Positions 40,601-56,255 of a stretch of 64,000 nt of DNA are shown here, piece after piece (the stretch's first letter is position 1; each line of letters begins with the position of its first letter). The translations under genes were made by a program, and so were the position numbers. The notes beneath the pieces were generated by a model that saw nothing but the letters and a program-made list of their open reading frames with translations, did no database searches and was not told where the DNA came from. This stretch comes from Bdellovibrio bacteriovorus (GTDB lineage Bacteria; Bdellovibrionota; Bdellovibrionia; Bdellovibrionales; Bdellovibrionaceae), in the NCBI RefSeq assembly GCF_001592735.1, contig NZ_LUKE01000006.1, forward strand, positions 192,738-256,737, in the 5' to 3' direction.

Positions 40601-40670
40601 AGATGATCAAGCCAAACATAAGGGTCCAGGCAAAAACCGAGCGCTTGATCGAAAGATCTATCAGATTCAT
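37605..40670 (-). CDS. RND efflux transporter, HAE1/AcrB-like inner-membrane pump
   Basis: A 1021-residue RND pump, the normal length for AcrB/MexB relatives, with twelve membrane segments and two large periplasmic loops. It begins MNLIDLSIKRSVFAWTLMFGLIIFGAISL. Proton-relay acidic residues lie in TM4 (LTLSISIVVDDAIMLLENI), and the internal repeat is clear (LIVLMGIAKKNSIMLVEFTNQ in the second half). The GISALPDVDFPIVNVSVSYEGAAPEIVE start is HAE1-type (drugs, organic compounds), not CzcA. Neither a membrane-fusion protein nor a TolC-like channel is next to it; in most genomes these are co-encoded. ATG 40670 follows AAGGAA. Confidence 0.96.
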   Translation of the reverse strand: MNLIDLSIKRSVFAWTLMFGLIIFGAISLNRMGISALPDVDFPIVNVSVSYEGAAPEIVEAELLDPMEEALLSIEGIKEMRSSARQGQGSVTLEFDINRNVDVVLQEVQTAMGQIRWPTGVDPAVVRKQNPEEDPIIIFTVYGEAPLRDMLIWVDTYFMDQLRFLPGVGDVNITGFSERNLRVWIDPAKLKKYYLTVTDVVQALNQQHLESAAGQFVNGQRELRVRWLGEAASTKEVENIQIINRGGARIQDVVIRIKDVARVEDGLSDIRRQGRVEGKQAVGISIRKQRGTNEVEVAKNVLKKVEEIKDQFPKGFNYRVSVDFTRSTEATVDLTIEKLWVAALITILVCFLFLGSIQAAINILFSIPTSIVGTFTILYFSGFTLNLFTLLALTLSISIVVDDAIMLLENIVRHYRMGKPSAKAASEGAKEVLPAATAATAAVIAVFLPVVFMDGIIGKFFFQFGVTMSAAVLLSLLEAVTITPMRAAALLRNEPKVNRFEAWLDHLFERFAHSYQNSLKFTIRWKYTIIIASLLFFAGSLVLITKVRQEFVPPQDQDFIIVTAQAVPGTSLEATTDFAIQVEKIVKANKNVEGFFVSIGGGGGAANVNQIFLPVKLIPKADRSVTHMQVMEELRGELRKIKGLRISMRDISARNLSSGRQNPLAVNLRGPDLEVLQKASQELMDRLEKEKLAVDLDTDFRKGLPELILKPDRAAMSARGVSVQSVGDVLAAGVSGLRQGRYTADGRRYDIRFKIEEDKISSPKDFENLNARNNFGNLIPLSQLVKIEEQSTIQGISRVNRQRAISVFGNLGPGQSQSHVLERAGQIAKEILPPGYSFALEGASAGFAQSFQSLYGAMLVGVLVAYMILAVQFNSFIHPITVLVALPFSVTGALVALWMFDVSLNLFSFIGLIVLMGIAKKNSIMLVEFTNQHREGKKSPNEALLEACPIRLRPILMTSVATVAAATPLVFGHGIGAETRLPMGLAIIGGTIVSTILTLFVVPALYMALVPLESKHKVVDL

Positions 40671-41109: not shown

Positions 41110-41228
41110 AAAACTATCTTGCGGGAAGCGCTGGTCCGAGATCAAGAGAGGGCCCCCAATTCTTGACCCGTTCTAGACCGAAGTGTAATTATGAAGGGCC
41201 CCTTCACCTCTTTTTGGAGCTCAAAGAC

Positions 41229-42563
41229 ATGAAAATTAAGCACTGTGATGACCTCAACACTCTTGTGAGTCTTAGCAAACGTCGCGGATTTGTATTTCAA
41301 TCCAGCGAAATTTACGGAGGTCTAGCTAGTTGCTGGGATTACGGTCCTTTGGGTTCTTTGATGAAGTTGAATGTCAAGCGGGCCTGGTGGAATGCGATGA
41401 CTCGCCGTAAGGACATCGTAGGTATTGATGCCGCTATTTTGATGCATCCGATGGTATGGAAAGCGTCTGGTCACGTGGACGGTTTTTCGGATCCTTTGGT
41501 GGATTGCAAATCTTGTAAAACACGTTTTCGCGCGGATAACACCGACTCTTATATCAATGAAAAAAAATGTCCAAATTGTGGCAGCAAAGATCTTTCTGAA
41601 GAGCGCAACTTCAATTTGATGTTTAAAACTCACATGGGTCCTTTGGAAGACACGGGCAGTGTGGTTTATTTGCGTCCGGAAACGGCTCAAGGTCACTTCG
41701 TGAACTTTCAAAACTGCCAGCAGTCATCCCGTTACAAAATTCCATTTGGTATCGCGGCGATCGGCAAGTCTTTCCGTAACGAAATCACTCCGGGTAATTT
41801 CATTTTCCGCACGCGTGAATTTGAACAAATGGAGATGCAATATTTCGTTAAACCAGGAACGGATGCGGAATACTTCAACCAGTGGAAAGAAATTCGCATG
41901 AATTTCTACACCAAATACGGCATCAAAAAAGAAAATATCAAATTCAAAGACCACGATAAACTGGCCCACTATGCCAAGGCGGCTGTGGATGTGGAATACA
42001 AATTCCCCATGGGTTATTCAGAACTTGAAGGTATCCATAATCGTTCGGATTTTGACTTGTCTCAACATTCAAAATTCTCGGGCAAAAACCTTGAGTATTT
42101 CGATGAAGCGAACAAAGAAAAATACATCCCTTACGTGATTGAAACCGCGGTGGGTTGTGATCGCCTGTTTTTGGCTTTCTTGTGTGATGCTTACCGTGAA
42201 GAAATCACGGCCGATGCTGAAGGCAAAGAAGACGTGCGCGTGGTTTTGGGTCTGCACCCGGAAATTGCGCCTTATAAAGTAGCCATCTTGCCGTTGTCCA
42301 AAAAAGAAGAGCTTTCTTCGATCGCTGAAAAACTGCGTGATGACTTGGCGATGGATTTTGATGTCACTTATGATGAAGCCCAATCCATCGGGAAGCGCTA
42401 CCGTCGTCAAGATGAAGCCGGAACTCCGTTCTGTGTGACCGTTGACTTTGATACCATCAATGACCAAGCCGTGACGGTTCGTCACCGCGACACCATGGTG
42501 CAAGAGCGCATTGCGATGTCGCAATTAAGTTCGTATATCGCGGGTAAGTTGAAGTCGTTTTAG
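41229..42563 (+). CDS. glyS: glycine-tRNA ligase, homodimeric (alpha2) type
   Basis: Class II synthetase of 444 residues that charges tRNA-Gly. It is the single-chain type of archaea, eukaryotes and some bacteria, not the alpha-beta tetramer. ATG 41229 follows TTGGAG; the frame opens earlier without support. Signatures: [22 protein letters not shown], a zinc-like CKSCKTRF...CPNCGSKDL pair of CxxC, motif 2 [25 protein letters not shown], and a C-terminal anticodon domain ([14 protein letters not shown]...[26 protein letters not shown]). The intrinsic terminator follows. Confidence 0.97.
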
Positions 42564-42599: not shown

Positions 42600-42633
42600 A
42601 AAAGCCGAGCCGAGAGGTTCGGCTTTTGTTTTT
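42600..42633 (+). terminator. rho-independent terminator of glyS
   Basis: AAAAGCCGA, a nine-base loop, TTCGGCTTTT, then GTTTTTT. Ends glyS transcription before the gliding operon. Confidence 0.9.
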
Positions 42634-42722
42634 TGGAATCAACTCCACATGGATTATTAAGTTTTCCTTAAGATATAGTTACAAATTTGTTCATAACGTC
42701 CTGTGTAAACCCTGAATTGACT

Positions 42723-42751
42723 TTGCAAACCTCAGGACCATGGTCTGTAAT
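42723..42751 (+). promoter_or_regulatory. candidate promoter of the Agl/Glt operon with spacer palindrome
   Basis: TTGCAA (42723-42728), 17 bases, TGTAAT (42746-42751). The spacer contains GACCATGGTC, a perfect 10-bp palindrome (42736-42745) that touches the -10 box, a natural place for a regulator. Confidence 0.45.
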
Positions 42752-42774: not shown

Positions 42775-43485
42775 ATGGAATTTTTAACTAAACTTGCACT
42801 AGCTTTTGAACACGGTGGCTTCTGGATGTGGCCAATTTTACTTATCCAGGTATCGTCTATCGCGATCATGATCGAAAGAGCGTACGCGCTTTTTGTTCGT
42901 CGTAAAATCTCTCAAACTCAATTCGCACTAGGCTTTGAAGAGTCTATTCGTCGTGGCGAAATGGATCAAGTGATCACGAAAGCTCAAGCGGCTTCGGCAC
43001 AAAATCCAGTGGCGCGCGCGATTGCCGCGGGTGCATTTGCAGCTAAAAACTTAGGCGGCAAAGAAGAGATCCAAGGAAAAATGGACGAAGTTCTTCTTGA
43101 AGAAAACGCTCACCTTGATCACCGCACAGGTTTCCTAACAATGCTTGGTAACGTAGCTACGTTGACCGGTCTTCTTGGAACTATCTCGGGTATGATTAAA
43201 TCTTTCGCGGCTGTGGCGTTTGCAAATCCAGCGGACAAAGCATCTTTGCTTTCAGCAGGTATCTCTGAGGCGATGAATGCGACAGCTTACGGTTTGATTG
43301 CGGCGATCCCAGCTCTAGTAGCTTACGCGATCTTGCAAAATCGTGCGAATCGTTTGGCTGAAGACTTAAACCAAGGTGGACTCAAAGTTTACAACTGGTT
43401 GAGCTATGCTTATGAGCCACTGACTGCTTATCAAATCAAAACTGCCAATGCGAAGTCTGAGCGTAATAACGAAATCAATGCGTAG
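42775..43485 (+). CDS. MotA/TolQ/ExbB-type proton channel protein, AglR-like
   Basis: A 236-residue inner-membrane protein started at ATG 42775 behind GGAGGGG. Three membrane segments: about 15-37 (FWMWPILLIQVSSIAIMIERAYALF), 120-145 (LTMLGNVATLTGLLGTISGMIKSF) and 165-190 (AMNATAYGLIAAIPALVAYAIL). The last two are the MotA/TolQ/ExbB signature helices, with the conserved Gly-Leu-Leu-Gly-Thr and Thr-Ala-x-Gly. It is the stator pore partner of the two ExbD-like proteins behind it. The three genes followed by Glt-like components match AglR-AglQ-AglS of Myxococcus, which power gliding. Confidence 0.92.
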   Translation: MEFLTKLALAFEHGGFWMWPILLIQVSSIAIMIERAYALFVRRKISQTQFALGFEESIRRGEMDQVITKAQAASAQNPVARAIAAGAFAAKNLGGKEEIQGKMDEVLLEENAHLDHRTGFLTMLGNVATLTGLLGTISGMIKSFAAVAFANPADKASLLSAGISEAMNATAYGLIAAIPALVAYAILQNRANRLAEDLNQGGLKVYNWLSYAYEPLTAYQIKTANAKSERNNEINA

Positions 43486-43494
43486 GAGCTGTTA

Positions 43495-43950
43495 GTGAAA
43501 CAGTCTAAAAAGCATCTGGATTTTGAAGTCAACCTGGTTCCCTTCATCGACTTTTTGTCGGTCGCGATCTGCTTTCTTTTGATCACCGCTGTGTGGTTGA
43601 ACGTGGGCTCGATGGACGTCAAACAAGCTGTCGGTGGACAGGCGCAAGAGGACACAAAGAAAAGTCCGCTTGTCTGGATTCGTATGACTCCGCAAGGGGA
43701 CTTGGATCTGGAAGTCCAGCAGAGTTCGCTAGTTCCAGCGAACTTAAGAAAAATCCGCGTTGCTCAACTTGATAAACAAGTAAATTGGGAAGGTCTTGAA
43801 AAAGCCCTAGCTAATTTGCGTCAAGTAGAACCAGCGCTTAACACCGGTCTTATTCAACCTACGGCTTCAACCGCTTACGAAGAAATTATCGACGTAATGG
43901 ATAAAATGAAAAAAGTTGGAATGAATGACCTTGGCGTATCGCCACTTTAG
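43495..43950 (+). CDS. TolR/ExbD-type motor protein (AglQ/AglS-like), first copy
   Basis: A 151-residue protein with one N-terminal membrane helix (NLVPFIDFLSVAICFLLITAVWL) holding D19, the proton-carrying aspartate of ExbD/TolR. The periplasmic part (VWIRMTPQGDLDL...AYEEIIDVMDKMKKVGMNDLGV) is the ExbD fold. It starts at GTG 43495, nine bases after the AglR-like gene. Two ExbD-type genes in one motor operon mirror AglQ and AglS, whereas Tol and Exb systems have one. Confidence 0.9.
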   Translation: MKQSKKHLDFEVNLVPFIDFLSVAICFLLITAVWLNVGSMDVKQAVGGQAQEDTKKSPLVWIRMTPQGDLDLEVQQSSLVPANLRKIRVAQLDKQVNWEGLEKALANLRQVEPALNTGLIQPTASTAYEEIIDVMDKMKKVGMNDLGVSPL

Positions 43951-43959
43951 GGGGAACTT

Positions 43960-44457
43960 GTGATTGCTGATGGCGTATTAAAGACATCTGTATTGACGGG
44001 CACCCTTGAGGGTCACTCTATCATCACTCCCAAAGGGGCGAAGCATAAGCGTTCAATCGCTGCGGATCTTCTTTTGACTGCTTTGATTGATGCCTTTTCG
44101 ATCCTGGTCATCTTTCTTTTGATGAACTTTTCAAGCACGGGCGAAATCCTGATGATTGGTAAAAACCAAGAGCTTCCAAAAGCACACTTGGCGGCCGTTC
44201 TTGAAAGAAATCCGGTTATCAAAGTTGATGATGGAAAAATCTATCTTGAAGATAAATTAGTCACCGCAAACTCTATCACGGCAGAGTTGTTGGAGCTTCG
44301 TAAGAAATTCCAAGAAACCAATCCTAAAGGGGAATTCCCAGGGATTGCGACGATCCAAGCGGATCGCCGCGTGAAGTACGAGCTTCTGAACCAAATTATC
44401 TTGGGGATGAATCAAGCGGGGTATAGCGATATTAAATTTGCCGTTGTCCTTAAATAG
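43960..44457 (+). CDS. TolR/ExbD-type motor protein (AglQ/AglS-like), second copy
   Basis: A 165-residue ExbD/TolR protein. It has a longer cytoplasmic N-terminus (about 35 residues, with HSIITPKGAKHKRS) before the membrane helix (LLLTALIDAFSILVIFLLMNF) with D44 as the proton-binding residue. The periplasmic domain carries GKIYLEDKLVTANSITAELLELRKK and the family end YELLNQIILGMNQAGYSDIKFAVV. Start GTG 43960 follows AGGGGGAA. It lies nine bases after the first copy, giving a 1:1 set with AglR. Confidence 0.9.
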   Translation: MIADGVLKTSVLTGTLEGHSIITPKGAKHKRSIAADLLLTALIDAFSILVIFLLMNFSSTGEILMIGKNQELPKAHLAAVLERNPVIKVDDGKIYLEDKLVTANSITAELLELRKKFQETNPKGEFPGIATIQADRRVKYELLNQIILGMNQAGYSDIKFAVVLK

Positions 44458-44496
44458 CTAGGGCACCGGCTTTCTGAAGGGGCGAGGGGGCTCACG

Positions 44497-47481
44497 ATGA
44501 AAAAAGGGATTTTGATCTTATCTGCAACAGCCACGATGGCGACAGCGGGGGTTGCTTACGCGCAAACTTCAGAGACCACCCAAGACCTATTAATTCAAAA
44601 ATTAACTCAAGTGCAACTGGGCTTGGCTCCGGCAGACCCTGCCAGAGCCGGTGTGCTTTTGCGCTTGGCCGATTTACACGCCGAACGTGCGCGCCAACTT
44701 TCAATGAAAGAATTAAATGACGGATGCACCGTGTGTAAAGCGGGTGATAAAGACCGTGAAAAAGCATTGAGCTTTTACAGCGAAGCATTGACGAAGGTGC
44801 CGCCGACGTCGATCGCCAAGGTGCAACTGCAAATGGGTCATCTTTATGAGCTTCAAGGTAAAGCTGATTTAGCTGAAAAAAGCTATTTAGCGATGTTGGG
44901 TTCATCCTCTTCTCCAGCAGAGATGGCTGAGGCGAATTTAAGCCTGGCGGAAATGGCTTTCCGTAAAAATGATTTCCAAAAAGCGCAAGACCTTTACGCC
45001 AAAGTTTTGGCAACGGAAGGTGCTAGCTCGCAAGGGTTGGCGGCTTATCGTAAGGCATGGTGTGCGTTCCGTATGGGAAATATGGAATCTGCGATCACGC
45101 AATTACAAGAAATTCTTAAAAATCCAAAATTACAATCGCGTATGGCCTCTTCTCGCGGAGTTGCAGATACTTCCTTCTTAATCGAAGTTTCGCAAGACAC
45201 GGCGACTATCATGGCCGCGCGTGGAATCCAAAATTCTGACGCCGATGTCTTGTATTCTTTGACGCCAGAGCAGGCAAAAATTCAGCAAGTGACAACGCTA
45301 GCGCGTGAAGGTTTGCGTTTAGGACAAAAAGAACAAGCTTTAAAGGTCTGGGATTTTGTCTACCAACGCCAAGCAGATCCTAAAGGCCGCTTGGAGGCGC
45401 AAGTACGTATCGCGCAACTAAACTTTGATTTGAAAAACAATGCTGCTGCCAATAAAGCTTACCAAACAGGTTTAAGCCTTTGGGGTGCGACGGACTGTAC
45501 GGTTGAATCTTGCGAAGAATCAGCCAAAGGTCTTCGTCAGTTTGTTGTTGGTTGGAATCGCCTTGAAAGTTCTAAAGCAAGCCCCGAGCTTTTAAATGCT
45601 TATACCGAATACTTCAAAGTTTTCGCCAATGACGAAGATATGTATGTATGGGGCTCGCAGGCCGCAGCTACGGCCGGTCAATATCCACAAGCCGTCGAGT
45701 GGACTGCTTTAGCGAACAAAGTGATCTTAGCGAAATATAATGCCGAAACAGATACCGCAGCGAAAAAATCTCAAAGCGAAAAATTAGAAAAAAATCTTCT
45801 TTTGGGTATCGAAAATGCGGAAAAAGCCAAGGACGAAAAACTTTTGGCATCAGCACAAGATGATTACCTGACGATGTCGATTGCAAAAGAAAAAGCATTT
45901 GATGTTCAGTATCAGCGCACTTATGCGATTTACCAAAAAGGTGATTACGTGAAGGCCGCGGATCAGTTGAAAAACTTGGCGATGTCTTCAAAAGGGTCTC
46001 GTCAGATCCAAATACAAGCAGCCGAACTTTCTTTAGATGCTTTAGCGTTGTTAAAAGACGATGCGCGTTTGCAAGCCTGGTCTTCAGAATACGCGGGCAA
46101 GTTTGCCGAGAAAAAAACGGACTTCCAACACATTCAACAAAAATCCATCTTAAACCAAACGGCGAAGCTGGCGGATTCTCAACCAGATCAAGCCTTGGCG
46201 ACGATGATGTCGTTTAATGCGGCGGGGGCGACACCGGAAGATCGCAAAGTTTATTTAAAGAATAAAATCATCTTGAATGAAAAACTAAATAAGATCACCG
46301 AAGCTCGCGTGGCAACCGAAGATCTTTTGCGTGAACCGACTTTGACGGCGGAAGAAAAAGAGTTCGCTTTAGGTCGCAAGGTTTGGTTTGCCGAACTTGA
46401 GCTTGATTTTGCCACGGCTTTAAAAGCGGCAGAGCAAATGAAATTCAGCACTCTTTCCCAAGAAGAAAGAATGTTGAAGCTGGCGATGTATTCAGAGCTT
46501 GCGGATAAAGATCCTCAAACTTATTACAATCAATATCTTCGCCAATCTAAAGACGACGAGAAAAAAGCATTGATCGCAATGCAGTTAATTCGTTTGTCTA
46601 AAAACCCGGTGAAAGACCTTGATACCTACAAACCTTACTTCAAAAACAACGCCGGTCTTTTTGCTCGCGCCGGTCTTGAAGTTTACGGTCGTACCAATGA
46701 CCGCAAAGTCTTAGAAAGAATCGCGAAAGAAAAAGGTTCTGCCAAGGGTGATGCGTTTGTGATGATCGACAAGATCCTTTTAATGGGTGACGTAAAAACC
46801 TTAGGAACTCAGCTTGCAAGTCATAACTTAGATACTAAAAACCAAAACACGATCGGCAAAAGCTTAAAAGCACGAGTGGTGTTGTTAGAAAAAGCCGATG
46901 GCTTAGCAAATCGCGCGATTGCCGCGGGTGACTGGGCTTCGCAATTGTTAGCCTTGGATTTAGTGGCTAAAGAAAATATGCGTTTTTATAACGAAGCCTT
47001 GGCTTTACCAATGCCAGCGGGTCTGACGCCTGAACAAGAAAGTGAATACTTAACGATCTTGTCTCAACAAGTGTCGCCGAATCAAAGTACGGCGACAATG
47101 GCTGAAACGAAAGTGAAAGAGTTCTGGGCGCAAGGAACAGCTTTAGATACTTATAAAGCTTTTGCGGCAAATAATATGGAATGGGCTAAATACATCGCGG
47201 AAGAAATTGAAGCGGTGGCGGCGATTGCTCCGGAAGCTCAGAAAACTGCTTGGTCCACGGCTTCCGTGGATATCAAAACAGCGGTGGGTGCTGTCAGCAA
47301 ACCAAGCTTGGCCGAACTTGAAAAAGCTCGCACCAATTTAAAACAAAATCCATTTGCGAAAAGTGCGCTTGAAGAAGCTTTGGCTTTAGAAAGAAAAGCG
47401 CAACGTAAGAGCATGGTGGAATATCTAGAAGGTCGTTTGGCCTCTTTGAACACAAGTGCAGAACCTAAGGAGAAGCAATAA
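44497..47481 (+). CDS. large periplasmic TPR protein of the Glt-like complex
   Basis: A 994-residue secreted protein. MKKGILILSATATMATAGVAYAQ is a signal peptide; GGGG and a run of GAGG precede the ATG 44497. It consists of TPR-like helical repeats throughout, clearest near KVQLQMGHLYELQGKADLAEKSYLAML and MAEANLSLAEMAFRKNDFQKAQDLYAKVL, with Cys only in CTVCK and a TDCTVESCEE segment. TPR proteins (GltD, GltE, GltF, GltI) form the periplasmic scaffold in Myxococcus; I cannot say which this corresponds to. It is the largest component of the operon. Confidence 0.85.
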   Translation: MKKGILILSATATMATAGVAYAQTSETTQDLLIQKLTQVQLGLAPADPARAGVLLRLADLHAERARQLSMKELNDGCTVCKAGDKDREKALSFYSEALTKVPPTSIAKVQLQMGHLYELQGKADLAEKSYLAMLGSSSSPAEMAEANLSLAEMAFRKNDFQKAQDLYAKVLATEGASSQGLAAYRKAWCAFRMGNMESAITQLQEILKNPKLQSRMASSRGVADTSFLIEVSQDTATIMAARGIQNSDADVLYSLTPEQAKIQQVTTLAREGLRLGQKEQALKVWDFVYQRQADPKGRLEAQVRIAQLNFDLKNNAAANKAYQTGLSLWGATDCTVESCEESAKGLRQFVVGWNRLESSKASPELLNAYTEYFKVFANDEDMYVWGSQAAATAGQYPQAVEWTALANKVILAKYNAETDTAAKKSQSEKLEKNLLLGIENAEKAKDEKLLASAQDDYLTMSIAKEKAFDVQYQRTYAIYQKGDYVKAADQLKNLAMSSKGSRQIQIQAAELSLDALALLKDDARLQAWSSEYAGKFAEKKTDFQHIQQKSILNQTAKLADSQPDQALATMMSFNAAGATPEDRKVYLKNKIILNEKLNKITEARVATEDLLREPTLTAEEKEFALGRKVWFAELELDFATALKAAEQMKFSTLSQEERMLKLAMYSELADKDPQTYYNQYLRQSKDDEKKALIAMQLIRLSKNPVKDLDTYKPYFKNNAGLFARAGLEVYGRTNDRKVLERIAKEKGSAKGDAFVMIDKILLMGDVKTLGTQLASHNLDTKNQNTIGKSLKARVVLLEKADGLANRAIAAGDWASQLLALDLVAKENMRFYNEALALPMPAGLTPEQESEYLTILSQQVSPNQSTATMAETKVKEFWAQGTALDTYKAFAANNMEWAKYIAEEIEAVAAIAPEAQKTAWSTASVDIKTAVGAVSKPSLAELEKARTNLKQNPFAKSALEEALALERKAQRKSMVEYLEGRLASLNTSAEPKEKQ

Positions 47482-47738
47482 TGAAATACGCATTGATGAT
47501 GCTCGTGTTATTAGGCGCGGTGGCGAATGCAGCGCCGGAAAAAGCAGCTCCTGTAAAAGATAAAAAACAAGACGTTAACTTCGAAGATCTTTTGGTCAGC
47601 GGTCAATACCACTTCAGCGATGAAGCGGTGACCACGGTTGAAGAAGACAAAGTTTTAAACAGCTTGATTGGTGTTCGCACAGATTTCAAAGATCGCATGA
47701 AACAATCTGCGACATTGGGAGAGGTTAAATCTAAATGA
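47481..47738 (+). CDS. small periplasmic protein of the Glt-like operon
   Basis: An 85-residue secreted protein with signal peptide MKYALMMLVLLGAVANAA and a charged mature part (VKDKKQDVNFEDLLVSGQYHFSDEAV...). No Cys and no family recognised. It begins at the last base of the previous gene's stop codon and its own stop overlaps the next start by four bases (ATGA), so it belongs to the machine. The length suggests a small adaptor between the TPR protein and the AgmX-tail protein. Confidence 0.78.
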   Translation: MKYALMMLVLLGAVANAAPEKAAPVKDKKQDVNFEDLLVSGQYHFSDEAVTTVEEDKVLNSLIGVRTDFKDRMKQSATLGEVKSK

Positions 47739-48868
47739 GTAACCTAAGACTGATTTTTGAAGACAATCTTGGTAACGTGACTCGCCAGATCCCGGTGACG
47801 TCGAAAAAAGCGCAGGTCATTCAGCGCTTTGACACTAAACGCTTTGAGGTCGTGACGGATACATCGGCATTAGAAAAAGACAAAATCAAATTCTCCACGA
47901 TCGCGGACTTAGACTTTGACGAAATGATGAATAAATCATTGCCGCTGGGAAGCTTTGGCACTTTAAAAGTAGTTAAAGAGATTTCGGCGGTTCCGGCGGA
48001 CATCCCGGTAAAACAAGATGGTCGTCGTGATTTACGAGCCTCTATTTTGCTCGCTTTTGCATTTTTATTGACGATTGTTTCGATTCAAAAATTTGCGCCT
48101 CGCGAGAGTCAAAAAATTGATGAGCAATTAAAGCAAGAAGTCGTAAAAATCGTCCAAGCCAAAGAACAACGTCGTAAAACCGTCGCGCCAACAACAAATA
48201 TGATGGCCGATCAAACAGCGACGAAGATGCCAACAAAACGTGCGGAACTGGTAAAACGTTCCGGTGCATTGGCCGCTTTAGGCAGTCTTCGCTCTGGCAA
48301 ACAAAAAGGCGGTTTGAACTTAGGTGCGGTGAATACCACAGCGGGTATCGGCCTTGGGGGCAATGCGGGTAGCGGTGGTGTGCAAACGTCACTTTATGGA
48401 AAAGGTATTACCTCGGCGGCTTTAGGTACCGGAGGTAACGTTGCCGGTGGCGGTGGTTACGGCACTAAAGGTAAAGGCGGCGGTCAGGCGGGTTACGGCA
48501 GTCTTTCACTTGTTGGTTCAGCAGGTGGAGCGCCAGTGCCATTGGGTGCTGAAGCGGAAGTGGCTTCTGGTCTTGATAAATCAGCGATTGATGAAGTCAT
48601 CCGTCGCAATATCGGCCAAGTTCGTTTTTGTTATGAACAGGCATTGCAAGGCACGCCCAATTTGAGTGGTCGCGTGGCAATGGGTTTCACCATCGGCGGT
48701 AACGGTTTAGTTAAAACGGCCAATGTGGAAAGCTCATCGATGGCAAATAAAGGTGTTGAAGATTGTATTACAATGCGTTTGAAAACGTGGAAGTTTCCAT
48801 TGCCTCAAGGGGGCGTGGACGTAAAAGTAACTTATCCGTTCGTATTACGCAGACAAGGGCAGGGGTAA
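47735..48868 (+). CDS. GltG-like inner-membrane protein with AgmX/PglI C-terminal domain
   Basis: A 377-residue protein. Residues 1-100 are a small cytoplasmic domain (MSNLRLIFEDNLGNVTRQIPV...), one membrane helix follows (about 102-118), then a charged segment, a Gly-rich linker (about 178-255) and a C-terminal domain (275-373) with DEVIRRNIGQVRFCYEQAL and GRVAMGFTIGGNGLVKTANV...CITMRLKTWKFPLP, the AgmX/PglI tail with its Cys pair. The layout resembles TonB/TolA-like energy transducers and GltG/GltJ in Myxococcus, which cross the periplasm and touch the outer membrane. It should couple the proton motor to outer-membrane parts. Confidence 0.9.
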   Translation: MSNLRLIFEDNLGNVTRQIPVTSKKAQVIQRFDTKRFEVVTDTSALEKDKIKFSTIADLDFDEMMNKSLPLGSFGTLKVVKEISAVPADIPVKQDGRRDLRASILLAFAFLLTIVSIQKFAPRESQKIDEQLKQEVVKIVQAKEQRRKTVAPTTNMMADQTATKMPTKRAELVKRSGALAALGSLRSGKQKGGLNLGAVNTTAGIGLGGNAGSGGVQTSLYGKGITSAALGTGGNVAGGGGYGTKGKGGGQAGYGSLSLVGSAGGAPVPLGAEAEVASGLDKSAIDEVIRRNIGQVRFCYEQALQGTPNLSGRVAMGFTIGGNGLVKTANVESSSMANKGVEDCITMRLKTWKFPLPQGGVDVKVTYPFVLRRQGQG

Positions 48869-48871
48869 CAT

Positions 48872-50026
48872 ATGAGAATTCTTTTAGCGGTACTAACAAG
48901 TGTTCTGTTTTTTACAGCGTGTGAGTTTAACCAAGATCCATTGGCCAATGCTCCAGAAAAAGTAAAAACTAACAATCCACCGATCACGAAGCCCGAAGGC
49001 CCTAAAGCCTGTCCGGTAGAGACGTTGTTTGTTGATGCTCCTTCTTACATCAATGCCCGCGTCAACGATGAAGTAAAAGTCCAAGTTGCAGGTCGCACCA
49101 TGATTGATGGCTTGGAGCTTGAACTTAAAGTCGACAACATGAAAGACTTCCCTGGAGCAAAGTTTGATCCTGAAAAAGGCGTCTTTACTTGGGTTCCAAA
49201 TAAGGAAGCGATCATTGGCGTACCCAGTGCCGTTTTTGTTTTGAATGTTTCCGTCGTCACGAAAGCAAGCCCGGTGTGCCAAGTCGCGATGTCGGCATCT
49301 CGAGCAGTACCGATCTTGGTTGTTAATGAATACGATGCCCCAGTGGTTAAAAGCGTTACTTCTCAAGGGCCTTTTATTGCGGGTGAAAAGTATGCAACTT
49401 TGACTTTTGCGATGGAAGATGTCGATGCCATCGATAAAAACGATGTGACTTTGAATTTCCGTAATTGTGATGATAACTTCAGCAATTCCATTGCTCATTT
49501 GATCAAAGTTAAAAGCATTGTTCAGGATGAAAATGTTGGAAAAAACTTTTCCGGCACTTTGCAATTAGATCTAACGAAATTTGAGTATTTTCCGAGTGGC
49601 AGATACTGCTTTGAAATGTTTGCTTTGTCGAAGTTTGGCATGATGTCTGAGGTGTATAAACACGAATTTGATATCGAAGCAAAATTACAAAAAGCACGTA
49701 TGACTTTGGATGTTTTTCCGGACATGAATCAGGGCACGATGGCAGTTTATCCTTTTTCAATTTTTGAACCCGCAGGAAATGGAGTTTTGACGCTTTCATC
49801 TGTGGGAGATCTTGAAAAACAACTTCCTGGCAGTTCGATTGTTTGTAAGTCGGCTAGCGGCAATAAGGCGCAACTAAATTGCGTGGCTACCTTTGATGCC
49901 ACCAACGCGATGATCAGAAATTATTCTCTGGCTTTGACCGTGGATAACGAAATGCCTCGCTCGGCTCAAAAATTATCTTCAACTATTTATATCAACGTTC
50001 GCGTATTGAAGGCGGTGACACCATGA
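48872..50026 (+). CDS. lipoprotein of the Glt-like operon
   Basis: A 384-residue lipoprotein: MRILLAVLTSVLFFTAC with lipobox FTAC (C17). After a Pro-rich linker the mature protein has Ig-like beta domains (LFVDAPSYINARVNDEVKVQVAGRTMIDGLELELKVD, FTWVPNKEAIIGVPSAVF, then a second after EYDAPVVKSVTSQGPF) and about six further Cys. It resembles cadherin/Ig-type Put-x-FTW modules. It probably anchors in the outer membrane as in GltK-like parts. Four-base overlap (ATGA) with the next gene. Confidence 0.82.
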   Translation: MRILLAVLTSVLFFTACEFNQDPLANAPEKVKTNNPPITKPEGPKACPVETLFVDAPSYINARVNDEVKVQVAGRTMIDGLELELKVDNMKDFPGAKFDPEKGVFTWVPNKEAIIGVPSAVFVLNVSVVTKASPVCQVAMSASRAVPILVVNEYDAPVVKSVTSQGPFIAGEKYATLTFAMEDVDAIDKNDVTLNFRNCDDNFSNSIAHLIKVKSIVQDENVGKNFSGTLQLDLTKFEYFPSGRYCFEMFALSKFGMMSEVYKHEFDIEAKLQKARMTLDVFPDMNQGTMAVYPFSIFEPAGNGVLTLSSVGDLEKQLPGSSIVCKSASGNKAQLNCVATFDATNAMIRNYSLALTVDNEMPRSAQKLSSTIYINVRVLKAVTP

Positions 50027-50748
50027 AATCAGTTGTTCTTTTTTTAGCATTATTTTCAAGCGTGAGTGCCTTTGCCCAAGTTGAACAAGAACTAGATTCT
50101 TTCGGTGGCAATGAAGCTTTGTACTTAAAAGCCCAAGCTTTAAATCCGGAAGTTCAAAATGAAGTGGTGCAGAACCGCTTTATCAATCGCACCAACCGCG
50201 TGGAAGCTTCTTTAGAGGGATCAAGCGTATTTGGTGGGGATGCATACAACCGTACGAATAACATTGGTTTTAATGCTCACTATCACATCAATCCTCACTG
50301 GAGCATTGGTGCGAAATACAACTATGGCATTAACAAGTTAACTCCAGAAGGCACGGCGATGGTGCGTGAAGCGGCTCAAGAAGCCGAGCGTAATCCTGAA
50401 AACCCGAGTATCTTATTCCCGCAAGTGATTTATCCAAAATCAGAACTATTGGGCTTGATCAACTGGTACCCCATCGTAGGTAAATTAAGCTTTGGCAGCT
50501 GGGGTGTAGCGCACTTTGATACTTACTTCACGGCGGGTTACGGCACGATGGAATTAGGCTCTAATTCTCCTATGGCGTCTAGCAATGCAGGGGTGGCGAC
50601 TTTGGGTGCGGGCTTGGGTTTCTGGTTGGGGTCAAACCTAACGACCCGAGTTGAATACCGTGCTGAACAATATTCGGCTCAATATTATGATCGTACCGAA
50701 GACATGTTAACTGGTGTGGCCTCATTACAGGTGGGTTGGATCTTATGA
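50023..50748 (+). CDS. outer-membrane beta-barrel protein, GltA/B/H-like
   Basis: A 241-residue outer-membrane protein. Signal peptide MKSVVLFLALFSSVSAFAQ; after a helical linker (EQELDSFGGNEALYLKAQALNPE) come barrel strands: NRVEASLEGSSVFGGDAY, IGFNAHYHINPHWSIGAKYNYG, GVATLGAGLGFWLGSNLTTRVEYRAEQY, ending LQVGWIL. The pattern fits the outer-membrane barrel domain found in Myxococcus GltA, GltB and GltH. It starts inside the lipoprotein gene's stop and overlaps the next gene by four bases. Confidence 0.88.
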   Translation: MKSVVLFLALFSSVSAFAQVEQELDSFGGNEALYLKAQALNPEVQNEVVQNRFINRTNRVEASLEGSSVFGGDAYNRTNNIGFNAHYHINPHWSIGAKYNYGINKLTPEGTAMVREAAQEAERNPENPSILFPQVIYPKSELLGLINWYPIVGKLSFGSWGVAHFDTYFTAGYGTMELGSNSPMASSNAGVATLGAGLGFWLGSNLTTRVEYRAEQYSAQYYDRTEDMLTGVASLQVGWIL

Positions 50749-52340
50749 AGTTAGTCCATTCATTAACCACAGTATCGTTGCTGGTAAGTTTGCAAAATGT
50801 GGCCTTCGCTGAGGATGACTTGATGAGCATCCTTGAAGGAAAAAATGCGACACCAGCAGCGCAATTCGTTGAAAGTGAAGAAATCGCTAAGCTTAAAAAA
50901 GCGGTGAATCCTTCATCGGCCGAACAAAACATCTTTTTTCAATTCTTAGTTGAAAAAAATTACGAAAAAGCCCTTTTTCAATGGAGTGCCGCTTTCACCG
51001 GATCGGCGTTTGCTCAAACTGAAACGGGCAAAGCCTTAGAATCTTTTTTAAATTATAAAAATGGTTTGAAACTGACGGGTGTTGAAGGTCTTTTGGCGAT
51101 CAAAGATCCTGAAAAAATCGACAACTCGGTGATCAGCTTATGGAAAGAAAACTTGAATGACAAAGACCCAGTATGGGGAATGGCGCAAGTAACTTGGCAT
51201 CCCTTCTGGACACAGACTTTTGGTGTCGCGGCTGAAATGGCCGTGGTTCTGCAAAAAAGTTATGTGAACGAAGAAATTCCTGCTTTGACCGAGTTGATCA
51301 AAAAAACGCCGGTAGACTCAGTAGAACGCAACCTTTTGCAATGGCAATTGGTTTTGAATCTGGGAATTCGCGGGGATTCAGCTAAAGCCGCCCAAGTTTT
51401 GGCTCATTTGATGAAAGCTAAAAACAACCCGATCGATATGGATCTTATGACCATCACGGCGGGACGTTTGCTTTATCAAAATGGCTTTTTGGATGCTTCT
51501 TTAAAATACTACGAAAAGATCTCTAAAAAATCAGATTATTGGTTTCAAGCACAAGAAGAAATGGCTTGGGCTTACATGAGAAAAGGTGAGCCTCAAAATG
51601 CGATGGCGATCACAAAAACTCTGACTTACCCGCACTTTAAAGGATGGGTTGGGATTGAGTCGTATCTTTTAGGTTCTTTTAGCAGCCTTAAAGTTTGTGA
51701 TTACCCAGGAGTTTTGAAAACGATGAAGTCGATCAAAACTCAGTTCGGGGATCACTTGATTGCTTTGGAAAAGCTAACAGCGGATCCAAATCAACCAGCG
51801 GCGACAAATTTGATGAAACTAATCGCTTCGGGTCCGGTTGATATTTCTAAACTTGGTAAAGACGCTCATATTTTGCCGAACCAGGCCTCACGCGATGAAG
51901 TCTTGGTTTTGTTGGTCAAAAGAAAGCAGTTTTTGACGAAAGAATCGGAAGTGGCAGAGCAGCTTTACGCGAAGTCTTTAACTTTCGGCAACCTGCAAGG
52001 ACACTTTGAAACTTTGAAAAACCAAGTTCAGATCCGTGCACAAATGACGGAAGGTGCTGGATATCAGCGTATTCAAGAATTAGCCAAAGCGGAACTAGAA
52101 GATTCAAAACAAGTGATGCAACGTTTGCACATCGTCGAAGTTGAAATGATTCAACAAGTGGATTCGGCCTCTAAGTTTTTGAAACACGCTAACGGCGGGG
52201 AATCAAAAAAAGGATCGACAGGATCTAACTCTAAGTATGCGATGAGCTTTGCTAACGATAAAGAAATTTGGTTTGACGAGCTTTCTAATTACAAAGTGGA
52301 TGTCAAAAAAGGTTGCGCGAAAAGCGTAGCTAAGGAGTAG
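50745..52340 (+). CDS. periplasmic TPR protein, second of the Glt-like operon
   Basis: A 531-residue secreted protein, start ATG 50745 overlapping the barrel gene's stop (ATGA); the frame opens three codons earlier, inside that gene. MKLVHSLTTVSLLVSLQNVAFAED is a signal peptide. Helical TPR-like repeats fill the rest (VERNLLQWQLVLNLGIRGDSAKAAQVLAHL, ASLKYYEKISKKSDYWFQAQEEMAWAYMRKGEPQNAMAI). Two Cys only (LKVCDY, KGCAKS). Likely a periplasmic scaffold in the same complex as the 994-residue TPR protein. Confidence 0.85.
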   Translation: MKLVHSLTTVSLLVSLQNVAFAEDDLMSILEGKNATPAAQFVESEEIAKLKKAVNPSSAEQNIFFQFLVEKNYEKALFQWSAAFTGSAFAQTETGKALESFLNYKNGLKLTGVEGLLAIKDPEKIDNSVISLWKENLNDKDPVWGMAQVTWHPFWTQTFGVAAEMAVVLQKSYVNEEIPALTELIKKTPVDSVERNLLQWQLVLNLGIRGDSAKAAQVLAHLMKAKNNPIDMDLMTITAGRLLYQNGFLDASLKYYEKISKKSDYWFQAQEEMAWAYMRKGEPQNAMAITKTLTYPHFKGWVGIESYLLGSFSSLKVCDYPGVLKTMKSIKTQFGDHLIALEKLTADPNQPAATNLMKLIASGPVDISKLGKDAHILPNQASRDEVLVLLVKRKQFLTKESEVAEQLYAKSLTFGNLQGHFETLKNQVQIRAQMTEGAGYQRIQELAKAELEDSKQVMQRLHIVEVEMIQQVDSASKFLKHANGGESKKGSTGSNSKYAMSFANDKEIWFDELSNYKVDVKKGCAKSVAKE

Positions 52341-52343
52341 TCT

Positions 52344-53381
52344 ATGAACTTTGTTCGTCCCGTTCTGCTGTCGTCAGCAGTGTTTTTGACTTTATTGGGT
52401 TGTGCAAAAGAAGTTCCAAAGTTAGAAGCCGAAGCGATTATCAAGCAAGAAGAGGTCACGGAAAAGCCAAGTGACTTTGTTGTGTATGATCCGCGCGTAG
52501 ATATTTTATTTGTGATCGATAATTCCGGCAGTATGGATAGAGCGCAAAAAGAAGTGGCACGCAATACGCGTCTTTTTGCAACTGAAATTTCCAGAGCCAC
52601 TTTGCTTGACTATCATATCGGCGTTGTTTCCACGGATATGAGCGCACGAGACGATGTTGGCAGTTACGGTAAACTTGCGGGCTTTCCAAATTTTGTGGAT
52701 AAAAATACGACGGAAGCCGTTCGTAAACTGTCTAGTCGTATGCTCTTAGGCACTGATGGCAGCGCGACAGAGATGATGTTTGCGCCCGTGAGAGCGGCTC
52801 TTTCAGAACCTAACCAGTCGACTTATAATAAGGATTTTTACCGTCCAGGAGCCTTCTTGGCGATCATCTTTATCACGGATGCGGCGGAACAGTCGGGAAT
52901 CAGTGGCAAGGACTTCTTGAGCTTTTTGTTAACTAAAAAGATCAATCCAGAAAAAGTCTTGGCTTACGGTGCTATTCGTAAGTTCAAAGAGGCGGACTCT
53001 TGCTTAAAAGGTGTTGAACCTTTGGATGAAAAGTTAGAGCAATTCTTGGCCAGCGTGACCAATGGTGCGCCGGTGAATGGACAAGACCAGCCCAACGTGG
53101 TCAGCCTTTGTGATAAAAAATTCGGACGCAAGCTTGCGGATTTTGCGAAGGACATCGTTCAGCGCACCGCAAACTCAATCCGTTTGAAAAAGACTCCGGA
53201 TGTAACGACAATCCGCGTATTTTACGGCAATCAAGAGATTCCAAATACCTATGGAACAGGTTGGACTTATGAAACTAAGTCCAACTCTATCATCCTGGGG
53301 GGGGATATTCCCTGGGATACGACGCAAAGCAACCCACAGCTAAGAATCGATTTCAAAGTGATCGAAGAGAAGCTGAAATAG
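52344..53381 (+). CDS. VWA-domain lipoprotein closing the Glt-like operon
   Basis: A 345-residue lipoprotein with leader MNFVRPVLLSSAVFLTLLGC (C20). A von Willebrand factor A domain runs from about 52 to 240: RVDILFVIDNSGSMDRAQ gives the MIDAS DxSGS motif, and FLAIIFITDAAEQSG the later acidic site. It should bind a divalent cation and a protein or surface ligand. Two Cys (ADSCLK, SLCDKK). It follows the TPR gene by three bases, and no Myxococcus Glt protein I know of has this domain. A possible role is adhesion to the substratum. Confidence 0.9.
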   Translation: MNFVRPVLLSSAVFLTLLGCAKEVPKLEAEAIIKQEEVTEKPSDFVVYDPRVDILFVIDNSGSMDRAQKEVARNTRLFATEISRATLLDYHIGVVSTDMSARDDVGSYGKLAGFPNFVDKNTTEAVRKLSSRMLLGTDGSATEMMFAPVRAALSEPNQSTYNKDFYRPGAFLAIIFITDAAEQSGISGKDFLSFLLTKKINPEKVLAYGAIRKFKEADSCLKGVEPLDEKLEQFLASVTNGAPVNGQDQPNVVSLCDKKFGRKLADFAKDIVQRTANSIRLKKTPDVTTIRVFYGNQEIPNTYGTGWTYETKSNSIILGGDIPWDTTQSNPQLRIDFKVIEEKLK

Positions 53382-53403: not shown

Positions 53404-53442
53404 AAAAAGGGCATCAATCAGCAAAAGATTTATGCCCTTTTT
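53404..53442 (+). terminator. rho-independent terminator of the Glt-like operon
   Basis: AAAAAGGGCAT (53404-53414), a 17-nt loop, ATGCCCTTTTT (53432-53442). It marks the VWA gene as the last of the operon. Confidence 0.88.
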
Positions 53443-53546: not shown

Positions 53547-56255
53547 ATGCAGACCAACGTGAGCACTGAAGAAAAACCAAAAACAACCATTCCGCAAAAA
53601 TTCGTCTACTTCTTCGCCGCCGGCGAAAGCGAAGGCAATGCCGGAATGAAAAACATCTTGGGTGGAAAAGGGGCCAATCTTGCAGAGATGACTTCTTTGG
53701 GAATTCCGGTGCCCCCCGGATTCACCATCTCTACTGAAATCTGTACTCACTACTCTGAAGCAGGTGGCAAACTTCCTGAATGGGTTCGTCCGGCCGTCAC
53801 AGCGGCGATGGCGAAAGTGGAAGCCAAGATAGGCAAAAAATTTGGTGATGTGAAAGATCCACTTTTAGTTTCGGTTCGTTCCGGCGCACGCGCTTCCATG
53901 CCCGGGATGATGGATACCATTTTAAATCTTGGCTTAAATGATCAAACGGTGGAAGGCTTAGCGAAGTCTTCCAACAACCCACGCTTTGCTTGGGATTCTT
54001 ACCGTCGCTTTATCCAGATGTATTCGGATGTTGTGATGGGTATGAACTCATCCCTTCTTGAAGTGACCTTGGAAGATTTAAAAGAAGAAAAACACTACAA
54101 GCTTGATACAGAAATGACCGTTGATGACTTGAAGATTTTAGTAAAAAAATTCAAAGATCTCGTTCATCAAATGACGGGCCAATCTTTTCCGGCAGATCCT
54201 TGGGAACAATTGTGGGGTGCGGTTTCTGCCGTGTTCAGTTCTTGGAATACTCCGCGTGCGATCACTTACCGTGAACTTCACAGCATCCCGGCAAGCTGGG
54301 GAACCGCGGTGAATGTTCAATCCATGGTCTTTGGAAACATGGGGGATGATTCAGCAACGGGTGTGGCGTTTACTAGAAATCCGTCCACAGGTGAAAAAGC
54401 ATTCTATGGAGAGTTCTTAATCAACGCTCAAGGTGAAGACGTGGTTGCGGGAATCCGCACGCCACAGCCGATCACCAAAATCGCGGCGGCAGCTTCAGGG
54501 CAGATGTCTTTAGAAGAAGCTTTGCCTCATGCTTACAACCAACTGGTTGAGATTTATAAAAAATTAGAAGCTCACTATCGCGATATGCAAGACATCGAGT
54601 TCACCATTGAAAAAGGAACTTTGTGGATGCTGCAAACTCGTAATGGAAAACGCACAGCCGCGGCGGCATTAAAAATTGCGTGTGACATGATCGATGAAAA
54701 ATTGATCACCGAACAAGAAGCGATCTTGCGTTTAGAGCCTTCGGCTTTAGATCAGCTTTTACATCCAACATTAGATCCCAAAGCGCAAAAAACTGTTTTA
54801 GCGAAAGGTCTTCCTGCATCTCCGGGTGGGGTGAATGGCCAGATCGTATTTAGCTCTGAAGAAGCCGTTGAGTGGAAAGAACAAGGTAAGAAAGTTATCT
54901 TGGTTCGGGTAGAGACGTCTCCTGAAGACATCGCGGGTATGATTGCCGCTCAAGGTATCTTGACCTCACGGGGTGGTATGACATCGCATGCGGCGGTTGT
55001 TGCGCGCGGTATGGGTAAATGCTGTGTGGCCGGTTGTGGTGATGTTGATGTCGACTATCGTAACGAAACGATGAAAGTAAAAGGTTACGTTCTTAAAAAA
55101 GGTGACGTGATCACTTTAGACGGTTCTACGGGTGAAGTTTATTTAGGCGAAGTCAAAACGATTGAGCCTAAATTAGAAGGCACTTTTGAACGTATCATGA
55201 AAATCGCCGACGGCGTTCGCAAATTAAAAGTGCGCACCAATGCCGACACGCCTAAAGACGCGCAAACCGCGCGCAACTTTGGCGCGGAAGGTATCGGTCT
55301 TTGCCGTACCGAACATATGTTCTTTGGCCCGGATCGTATCGATGCGGTTCGTGAAATGATTATCGCGGATAATAAAACAGAGCGCGAAAGAGCTTTGGCG
55401 AAACTCTTGCCAATGCAACGTGATGACTTTTATCAGTTGTTTAAAATTATGGACGGCTTGCCGGTGACAATTCGTTTGTTGGATCCACCTCTTCATGAGT
55501 TCGTGCCTCACACGGATGAAGAAACGAAGGATTTGGCAAAACGTATCGGGACAGACTTTGAACGTCTTCGTTCGAAAGTAAAATCTTTGCATGAGTTTAA
55601 TCCGATGTTGGGTCACCGCGGTTGCCGTTTGGCGATCACCTATCCGGAGATCTATGCTATGCAAGTGCGTGCGATCGCCGAAGCGGCTTGCCAATTGATT
55701 TCTGAAGGGAAAAAATTAATTCCAGAAATCATGATTCCATTGATTGCAACAGACAAAGAGCTCGACACTCTTCGTGTGTTAACGGTGAATGAAGTTAAAA
55801 AAGTTCAAGCGGAAAAAGGTATCAAATTTGATTACCAAGTAGGCACGATGATCGAGCTTCCTCGTGCCGCGATCACGGCGGATTCCATTGCGGAATACGC
55901 GGACTTCTTTAGCTTTGGCACGAATGACCTAACGCAAACGACCTTGGGTCTTTCTCGTGATGACTCAGGCCGGTTCTTGGGCACGTATGTGTCGACGGGA
56001 ATTCTACCTAAAGATCCATTCATGTCGATTGACCAACAAGGCGTGGGTTCCTTAGTAAGAATGGGAACGGATTTAGGTCGTCGCACAAAACCTCATCTGA
56101 AGGTGGGCGTGTGCGGAGAGCATGGTGGCGATCCAGATTCTATCGAGTTCTTCCACCGTGTGGGGCTTGATTACGTATCTTGTTCACCGTTCCGAGTGCC
56201 TATCGCCAGACTTGCGGCCGCTCGTGCGGCGTTGCTGGGTAAGAAACTGCACTAG
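53547..56255 (+). CDS. ppdK: pyruvate, phosphate dikinase
   Basis: A 902-residue enzyme converting pyruvate, ATP and phosphate to PEP, AMP and PPi, and back. Three domains are visible: the N-terminal nucleotide-binding part (YFFAAGESEGNAGMKNILGGKGANLAEM, SVRSGARASMPGMMDTILNLGLND); the central phosphohistidine domain with H481 (SRGGMTSHAAVVARGMGKCCVAGC); and the C-terminal TIM barrel with C856 in GVCGEHGGDP and substrate residues in FEFNPMLGHRGCRL-type text. The start ATG follows GAGGG. It may run in either direction; in an amino-acid-fed predator it could support gluconeogenesis. Own promoter, no partner gene. Confidence 0.98.
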   Translation: MQTNVSTEEKPKTTIPQKFVYFFAAGESEGNAGMKNILGGKGANLAEMTSLGIPVPPGFTISTEICTHYSEAGGKLPEWVRPAVTAAMAKVEAKIGKKFGDVKDPLLVSVRSGARASMPGMMDTILNLGLNDQTVEGLAKSSNNPRFAWDSYRRFIQMYSDVVMGMNSSLLEVTLEDLKEEKHYKLDTEMTVDDLKILVKKFKDLVHQMTGQSFPADPWEQLWGAVSAVFSSWNTPRAITYRELHSIPASWGTAVNVQSMVFGNMGDDSATGVAFTRNPSTGEKAFYGEFLINAQGEDVVAGIRTPQPITKIAAAASGQMSLEEALPHAYNQLVEIYKKLEAHYRDMQDIEFTIEKGTLWMLQTRNGKRTAAAALKIACDMIDEKLITEQEAILRLEPSALDQLLHPTLDPKAQKTVLAKGLPASPGGVNGQIVFSSEEAVEWKEQGKKVILVRVETSPEDIAGMIAAQGILTSRGGMTSHAAVVARGMGKCCVAGCGDVDVDYRNETMKVKGYVLKKGDVITLDGSTGEVYLGEVKTIEPKLEGTFERIMKIADGVRKLKVRTNADTPKDAQTARNFGAEGIGLCRTEHMFFGPDRIDAVREMIIADNKTERERALAKLLPMQRDDFYQLFKIMDGLPVTIRLLDPPLHEFVPHTDEETKDLAKRIGTDFERLRSKVKSLHEFNPMLGHRGCRLAITYPEIYAMQVRAIAEAACQLISEGKKLIPEIMIPLIATDKELDTLRVLTVNEVKKVQAEKGIKFDYQVGTMIELPRAAITADSIAEYADFFSFGTNDLTQTTLGLSRDDSGRFLGTYVSTGILPKDPFMSIDQQGVGSLVRMGTDLGRRTKPHLKVGVCGEHGGDPDSIEFFHRVGLDYVSCSPFRVPIARLAAARAALLGKKLH

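Follow-up and report, generated by a model that had tools for sequence, protein, structure and literature searches.

We analyzed a 64,000-nucleotide stretch (here called the window) of Bdellovibrio bacteriovorus contig NZ_LUKE01000006.1, which is contig C6 of a Bdellovibrio genome assembled in nine contigs (G000). Its open reading frame (ORF) list contains ten consecutive genes (g1 to g10), all on the plus strand from 42775 to 53381, which almost certainly encode a machine of the Agl/Glt type. The spacings from g1 to g10 are +9, +9, +39, -1, -4, +3, -4, -4, and +3 bases (i.e., gaps of 3 to 39 bases or overlaps of 1 to 4 bases), the value between g8 and g9 being -4 with the preferred ATG of g9 at 50745 and -13 with an upstream TTG at 50736. 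A preliminary description of the window, made from the DNA letters and their ORFs, had reported ten genes with these coordinates and this near-gapless or overlapping layout, and had listed a MotA/ExbB-type channel subunit, two ExbD-type proteins, two TPR proteins, a protein with an AgmX tail, a barrel, a lipoprotein, and a VWA lipoprotein; the layout and all of these parts were recovered (Table 1). The tenth component, beyond those nine, is a small CglF/GltF-like protein encoded by g5. Further Bdellovibrio genomes, and members of different families within the order, carry the identical gene set in the identical order, and this recurrence excludes a chance arrangement.

Table 1. Features of the ten-gene operon and its flanks (positions within the window)
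Feature	Positions	Strand	Evidence
Terminator-like hairpin 3' of glyS, upstream boundary	42607-42632	+	Hairpin 42607-42625, then T-rich DNA
Promoter/operator-like element CTTTGC-N19-TGTAAT with palindrome GACCATGGTC	42721-42751	+	Conserved upstream of g1
g1, AglR-type MotA/TolQ/ExbB proton-channel subunit	42775-43485	+	PF01618 8.7e-26; Agl clade in tree
g2, ExbD/TolR-type subunit (AglQ/AglS-type)	43495-43950	+	PF02472 7.8e-17; Asp19 in membrane helix
g3, second ExbD/TolR-type subunit (AglQ/AglS-type)	43960-44457	+	PF02472 3.8e-13; Asp44 invariant
g4, GltD-like periplasmic TPR protein, 994 aa	44497-47481	+	Family model vs. Hyalangium GltD-position TPR protein 4e-25; weak TPR matches
g5, CglF/GltF-like small secreted protein	47481-47738	+	NF033764 5.9e-6; Hyalangium CglF gene 2e-8 by family model
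g6, GltG-like transducer, 377 aa	47735-48868	+	NF033760 1e-41 (only profile positions 399-649); NF033768 8e-33
g7, fast-diverging lipoprotein	48872-50026	+	Lipobox FTAC17; no family match in NCBIfam/Pfam
g8, GltA/GltB-type outer-membrane beta barrel	50023-50748	+	TIGR04565 2.1e-28, over cut-off
g9, GltC-like periplasmic TPR protein	50745-52340	+	NF033756 3e-10; Myxococcus GltC 1e-15 by family model
g10, VWA-domain lipoprotein, candidate adhesin	52344-53381	+	MIDAS-type DxSxS; lipobox Cys20
Putative terminator, downstream boundary	53404-53442	+	11-bp inverted repeat and T-rich DNA after g10

Motor subunits

A tree of the motor subunits separated every Agl-type row, g1 and Myxococcus AglR included, from the Tol/Exb proteins (support, 100/99), which supports the Agl/Glt reading of the preliminary description. 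Within the Agl-type rows, the window type was sister to the type of HD100 cluster Bd0412 (100/99), while the Bd0828 type grouped with Myxococcus AglR (93/90) and the Bd1473 type with the second Myxococcus cluster (91/82). When genome G029 was included, the seven rows of the Bd2368 type, to which the window operon belongs (see below), did not form one supported clade (two changes), and membership in this type outside the genus was thus assigned by gene order and identity. All 15 copies of g3 and every genus copy of g2 retain the channel Asp. In three copies from other families (L079, L080, and L082), g2 has Ser at this position and g3 keeps the Asp, which raises the possibility that one of their two plug proteins does not carry protons.

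The motor proteins also bear on the idea that the operon is a Tol-Pal or TonB-Exb system resembling a gliding cluster, since g1 to g3 match TolQ/ExbB/TolR profiles and the C terminus of g6 is TonB-like. However, g1 scored below both the TolQ and ExbB equivalog cut-offs of NCBIfam (79.7 of 221 and 66.1 of 206 bits), the operon has no Pal or TonB-dependent receptor, and it does encode GltD, GltF, GltC, and a barrel of the myxo type. This explanation is already contradicted by the tree and is very improbable; the comparison with Tol-Pal and Exb systems proposed at the outset favors Agl.

Envelope components

The comparison with the Myxococcus proteins, also proposed in the preliminary description, was carried out with family hidden Markov models (HMMs) built from the operon orthologues and run against the clusters of Myxococcus sp. 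CA023 and Hyalangium, which were located via MglA. The Glt genes could be mapped in this way: g4 to GltD, g5 to GltF, g6 to GltG, g8 to the barrels, and g9 to GltC. Besides the matches given in Table 1, the family HMMs paired g1 with AglR (2e-60), g2 and g3 with the two ExbD-type partners (1e-24 and 6e-34), and g6 with GltG (9e-41), and the g8 model matched both barrels adjoining Myxococcus GltC (2e-14 and 1e-13).

The g6 protein has a single membrane helix (residues 99 to 118, by hydropathy) and an AgmX/PglI C-terminal tail. It lacks the FHA domain that is present in GltG of Myxococcus, Hyalangium, and the Bd0828 type; among the Bdellovibrio clusters tested, an FHA-bearing GltG is confined to the Bd0828 type. 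No protein of the window matches NF033758 (GltE) or NF033755 (CglE/GltH), and both proteins are recognizable in Hyalangium beside the genes matched by the family HMMs. The GltJ model (NF033761) matches the operon solely via the shared tail, so that no GltJ was recognized, nor were GltI and GltK, for which no dedicated model was run; both of the latter are reported to be absent from Bdellovibrio (Luciano 2011; PMC3169522). A PDB sequence search with g6 and g10 returned no relative.

Relationship to the four agl/glt clusters of Bdellovibrio

Four expanded agl/glt sets have been described in Bdellovibrio, with Bd0828-0838 named as the best gliding candidate (Luciano 2011; PMC3169522), and the window genome likewise carries four clusters. 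In the genome taken as HD100 (G006; strain names of the compared genomes are strong but indirect assignments), the clusters lie at 0.39, 0.79, 1.40, and 2.28 Mb, fitting Bd0412, Bd0828, Bd1473, and Bd2368. By sequence comparison, we identify the window operon as the orthologue of HD100 Bd2368-Bd2377 (L065), with which it shares the ten genes, their order, the promoter-like element, and identities of 83% in g6 and 75% in g4. The HD100 copy, on the minus strand with Bd2377 corresponding to g1 and Bd2368 to g10, differs in that it does not lie between glyS and ppdK and its lipoproteins are only 38% (g7) and 53% (g10) identical. Four proteins marked as secreted in a 2025 proteome (Bd2369, Bd2370, Bd2373, and Bd2374; PMC12546842) would map to g9, g8, g5, and g4, all of which have signal-peptide-like starts, and this supports the gene mapping. 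The cluster itself is therefore already known, and the novelty lies in the comparative results on its optional presence, mobility, upstream element, and lipoprotein pair.

The clusters differ in published expression. Levels of Bd0828-0838, Bd1473-1483, and Bd2368-2377 were higher in prey-independent growth, and those of Bd0412-0420 rose early during predation (Lambert 2010; PMC2797640). In the 2025 proteome, Bd2368-2375 and Bd2377, i.e., nine of the ten proteins, were up at prey exit (log2 fold change, 2.1 to 3.2), and the study names Bd2368-2377 as involved in exit; the Bd0411-0421 proteins were high at 45 to 60 min (PMC12546842).

Comparison sorts the Bdellovibrio clusters by architecture as well. 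Bd0412-Bd0420/0421 (L012 and L214) is the closest paralogue of the window operon, with the same g1-g10 order in HD100, but its published peak falls early in the bdelloplast and not at exit. In the window genome, the cluster of this type (L012:9773-19958) has as its last member another VWA lipoprotein gene (motif DNSESM), which extends beyond the sequence analyzed. Bd0828-0838 (L013 and L215) shares AglRQS, GltD, GltF, GltG, GltC, and barrels with the window operon, whereas its GltG keeps the FHA domain, it has its own GltE-like lipoprotein, its glt genes precede the motor genes, and no VWA gene was seen within it. Judged by the motor subunit, the nearest phylogenetic relative of the Myxococcus gliding machine is Bd0828-0838 and not the window operon, and this placement agrees with the choice made by Luciano et al. 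The AglRQS-GltA-K machine of Myxococcus xanthus has the motor clade, the GltD/F/G/C homologues, and the barrel in common with the window operon. It is split over three clusters (PMC3169522), as the preliminary description had stated, and has two barrels rather than one, whereas the window operon encodes a VWA lipoprotein of its own and has no recognized GltE, GltH/CglE, or GltJ. The further suggestion that the operon is a minimal machine is unsupported as stated: the three other clusters of the genome could share parts with it, and its GltG is cut down relative to those of Bd0828 and Myxococcus.

Presence in the genus

Of the 24 species genomes examined in the genus, 14 carry the window-type cluster; independent searches with g6 and g7 gave the same 14, which include the genomes taken as HD100, SSB218315, Tiberius, and LBG001. 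The Bd0828 and Bd1473 types are present in 24 of 24 genomes and the Bd0412 type in 22 of 24, the two exceptions being fragmented assemblies. The window type is thus the sole optional cluster of the four in the genus, which is a new observation. Searches with g6, g7, and g4 did not find it in NC01, KM01, SKB1291214, ZAP7, W, or kdesi, where g4 returned only the Bd0412-type copy (28 to 31% identical). All six are counted as invaders of the prey periplasm, although the assemblies of W and kdesi may be incomplete (PMC11656739), and bdelloplasts have been observed for NC01 (PMC7137782). On a two-gene species tree, many inner branches of which are weak, the observed distribution requires six changes, and supported branches force at least five of these.

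One reading of this pattern takes the operon for a redundant copy of the Bd0412-type cluster that has no distinct role and is undergoing decay in the genus; the sister relationship with near-equal gene order and the absence from 10 of 24 genomes would fit. Decay, however, sits poorly with g6 and g7, which are open without stops in every genus copy, and with ratios of nonsynonymous to synonymous substitution rates (dN/dS) of no more than 0.13 for each operon gene in the close pairs tested. Moreover, the operon is old in the order, with intact relatives in other families, and the window-type and Bd0412-type clusters peak at different stages in HD100. We consider this reading improbable.

As a separate observation, the epibiotic predators P. 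exovorus JSS and Ca. B. qaytius (G055 and G056; L244 and L245) have neither a window-type nor a Bd0412-type g4, i.e., both are without the two clusters whose proteins HD100 produces within prey.

The two lipoproteins

The g10 protein resembles the MIDAS-family adhesin Bd0875 (PMC11003981) and Myxococcus CglB/CglD in being a lipoprotein with a VWA domain and a DxSxS motif, but it differs in that its profile matches (NF033765 CglD, 4.6e-10; NF052240 MIDAS adhesin, 6.4e-9) are confined to the VWA region and far under the family cut-offs. The DxSxS motif is kept in 15 of 15 copies and the lipobox in all of them. A single-sequence structure model of g10 was discarded (predicted local distance difference test [pLDDT] score, 35.5). 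In g7, which is 33 to 40% identical to its genus copies, the lipobox is found in most copies. Its single-sequence model is all-beta at low confidence (pLDDT, 59.8), and the Foldseek matches are cadherins with TM-scores near 0.2, which we take as a hint only; g7 probably consists of tandem Ig/cadherin-like beta domains, an assignment of low confidence.

The rate of divergence, relative to the core genes g1, g2, g6, and g9, is 4.7-fold for g7 and 2.8-fold for g10. Among ten genomes and with several gene pairs tested, the excess divergence of g7 was correlated with that of g10 (r = 0.87; Mantel P = 0.002), also when the window genome was left out (r = 0.70; P = 0.015), and no such correlation was seen for g4-g7 or g5-g7. 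These data suggest that the two lipoproteins are the fastest-diverging proteins of the operon and change together. Positive selection on g7 and g10 was considered and rejected, as dN/dS was at most 0.09 where computable (g10 was saturated in one pair). Unusually high synonymous divergence (dS) in some close pairs suggests allele exchange. Between HD100 (L065, 6988-8145) and SSB218315 (L064), for example, dS is 0.62 for g7 and 0.05 to 0.27 for the remaining operon genes, which suggests recombinational exchange of the g7 allele.

Genomic location and upstream element

The operon is flanked by glyS (41163 to 42563) and ppdK (53547 to 56255) in the window and lies between these genes in most carriers. 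The HD100 group and G004 carry it elsewhere, and in these genomes glyS and ppdK are close together without it. The glyS-ppdK site as the ancestral location was rejected as unsupported, as both genes adjoin without the operon in several genomes, including one of another family (G034). The downstream inverted repeat was spotted by eye; with a loop of 17, it was missed by the automatic terminator scan.

Of the 13 genus copies examined, 11 have the exact 16-mer GACCATGGTCTGTAAT upstream of g1, and the other two have it with one mismatch (G008) or three (G004). It lies 37 to 72 bases from the g1 start codon, and the flanking DNA is hardly alignable. It occurs exactly once in each of the carriers G000, G006, and G020 and never in exact form in the noncarriers G005, G012, and G013. 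The element may be a promoter with a palindromic operator. A wider regulon was dropped as a possibility, given the single exact copy per carrier and given that two-mismatch matches in the window genome were no commoner than those of a reversed-control pattern.

Proposed role

The gliding machinery of Bdellovibrio was called unidentified in a 2026 review (PMC13104615). Beside the orthology, gene map, motor clade, channel Asp, MIDAS-type motif, and patchy presence observed here, we propose, with a probability of roughly 0.6, that the operon encodes a complete-looking Agl/Glt-type machine, an accessory copy that drives gliding by the grip of surface lipoproteins and is made mostly late in HD100. 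In such a machine, g1 with g2 and g3 would form a proton-driven, presumably rotary motor of the 5:2 type in the inner membrane and move the GltG-like g6, whose periplasmic AgmX tail would pass the motion to g4 (GltD), g9 (GltC), and g5 (GltF). These would push on the outer-membrane barrel g8, which may carry or expose the lipoproteins g7 and g10 at the surface, and g10 would grip the substrate by its VWA/MIDAS domain, so that the cell glides. In HD100, the machine would be made mostly as the progeny leave the prey; species without the operon keep the three other clusters and presumably exit with those. The preliminary description had called this a gliding operon: the Agl/Glt type stands on the tree and the gene map, whereas movement of the cell, for which the published support is protein abundance in the exit phase (PMC12546842), is only somewhat more probable than its opposite.

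Several points weigh against this role. The scores for GltC (39.5 of 450 bits), GltG (143 of 650), CglF (26 of 90), and CglD (38 of 400) all miss the NCBIfam equivalog cut-offs, although homology to GltC, GltG, and CglF is nonetheless backed by the family HMMs. A transposon mutant of Bd0838, in the Bd0828 cluster, was defective in prey attachment, killing, and rounding (Duncan 2019; PMC6561027), and bd1480, in the Bd1473 cluster, was raised on surfaces (Lowry 2022; PMC9140294), so that gliding could rest on either of these clusters. No Bd2368-2377 mutant was found in the literature searched (supplements not covered). Furthermore, a general need for the cluster in prey exit is contradicted by the prey-invading isolates without it, unless other clusters stand in; as there are at least four such isolates, the cluster is not generally required for leaving prey.

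A motor of the Agl/Glt type might instead serve a nongliding task, such as moving surface polymer or lipoproteins as Myxococcus Agl-Nfs does on spores, and the exit peak would then reflect remodeling of the progeny envelope. Agl motors with other uses are known (PMC3858216), and the grouping of the Bd0828 type rather than the window type with Myxococcus AglR, the GltG without an FHA domain, and the prey-invading isolates without the operon are all compatible with such a task. Against this, the operon includes genes for a VWA/MIDAS lipoprotein and for a second lipoprotein of the surface type, which fits a machine that takes hold of something outside the cell, and it has no polysaccharide genes. 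We regard this alternative as unlikely, if less so than decay, and prefer gliding by lipoprotein grip.

Isolates that invade prey without the cluster, beside close relatives that have it, offer a direct test of the exit hypothesis. Normal exit and gliding in these isolates would mean that exit does not generally depend on the cluster, and an altered exit would reveal its role with no need for a mutant. A more speculative extension, which we find possible but doubtful, is that Bdellovibrio has four paralogous gliding-type machines used at different stages, among which the window type would be an exchangeable exit module that has been acquired, lost, and relocated as a unit with its private promoter element. 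The g7-g10 pair would then touch and fit the substrate and be re-sorted between species by recombination, and NC01, KM01, SKB1291214, and ZAP7 would be natural knockouts that exit via another cluster or without gliding.

Other observations

Deletion of mglA leaves Bdellovibrio gliding intact (PMC3983030). The MglA homologue of the window genome (L031:1315-1908) adjoins recR and a nadA-like gene, and its closest solved structures are those of Myxococcus MglA. Near the operon, an RND-type efflux transporter is encoded on the minus strand (37605 to 40670); it lies beside glyS in some relatives and not in others.

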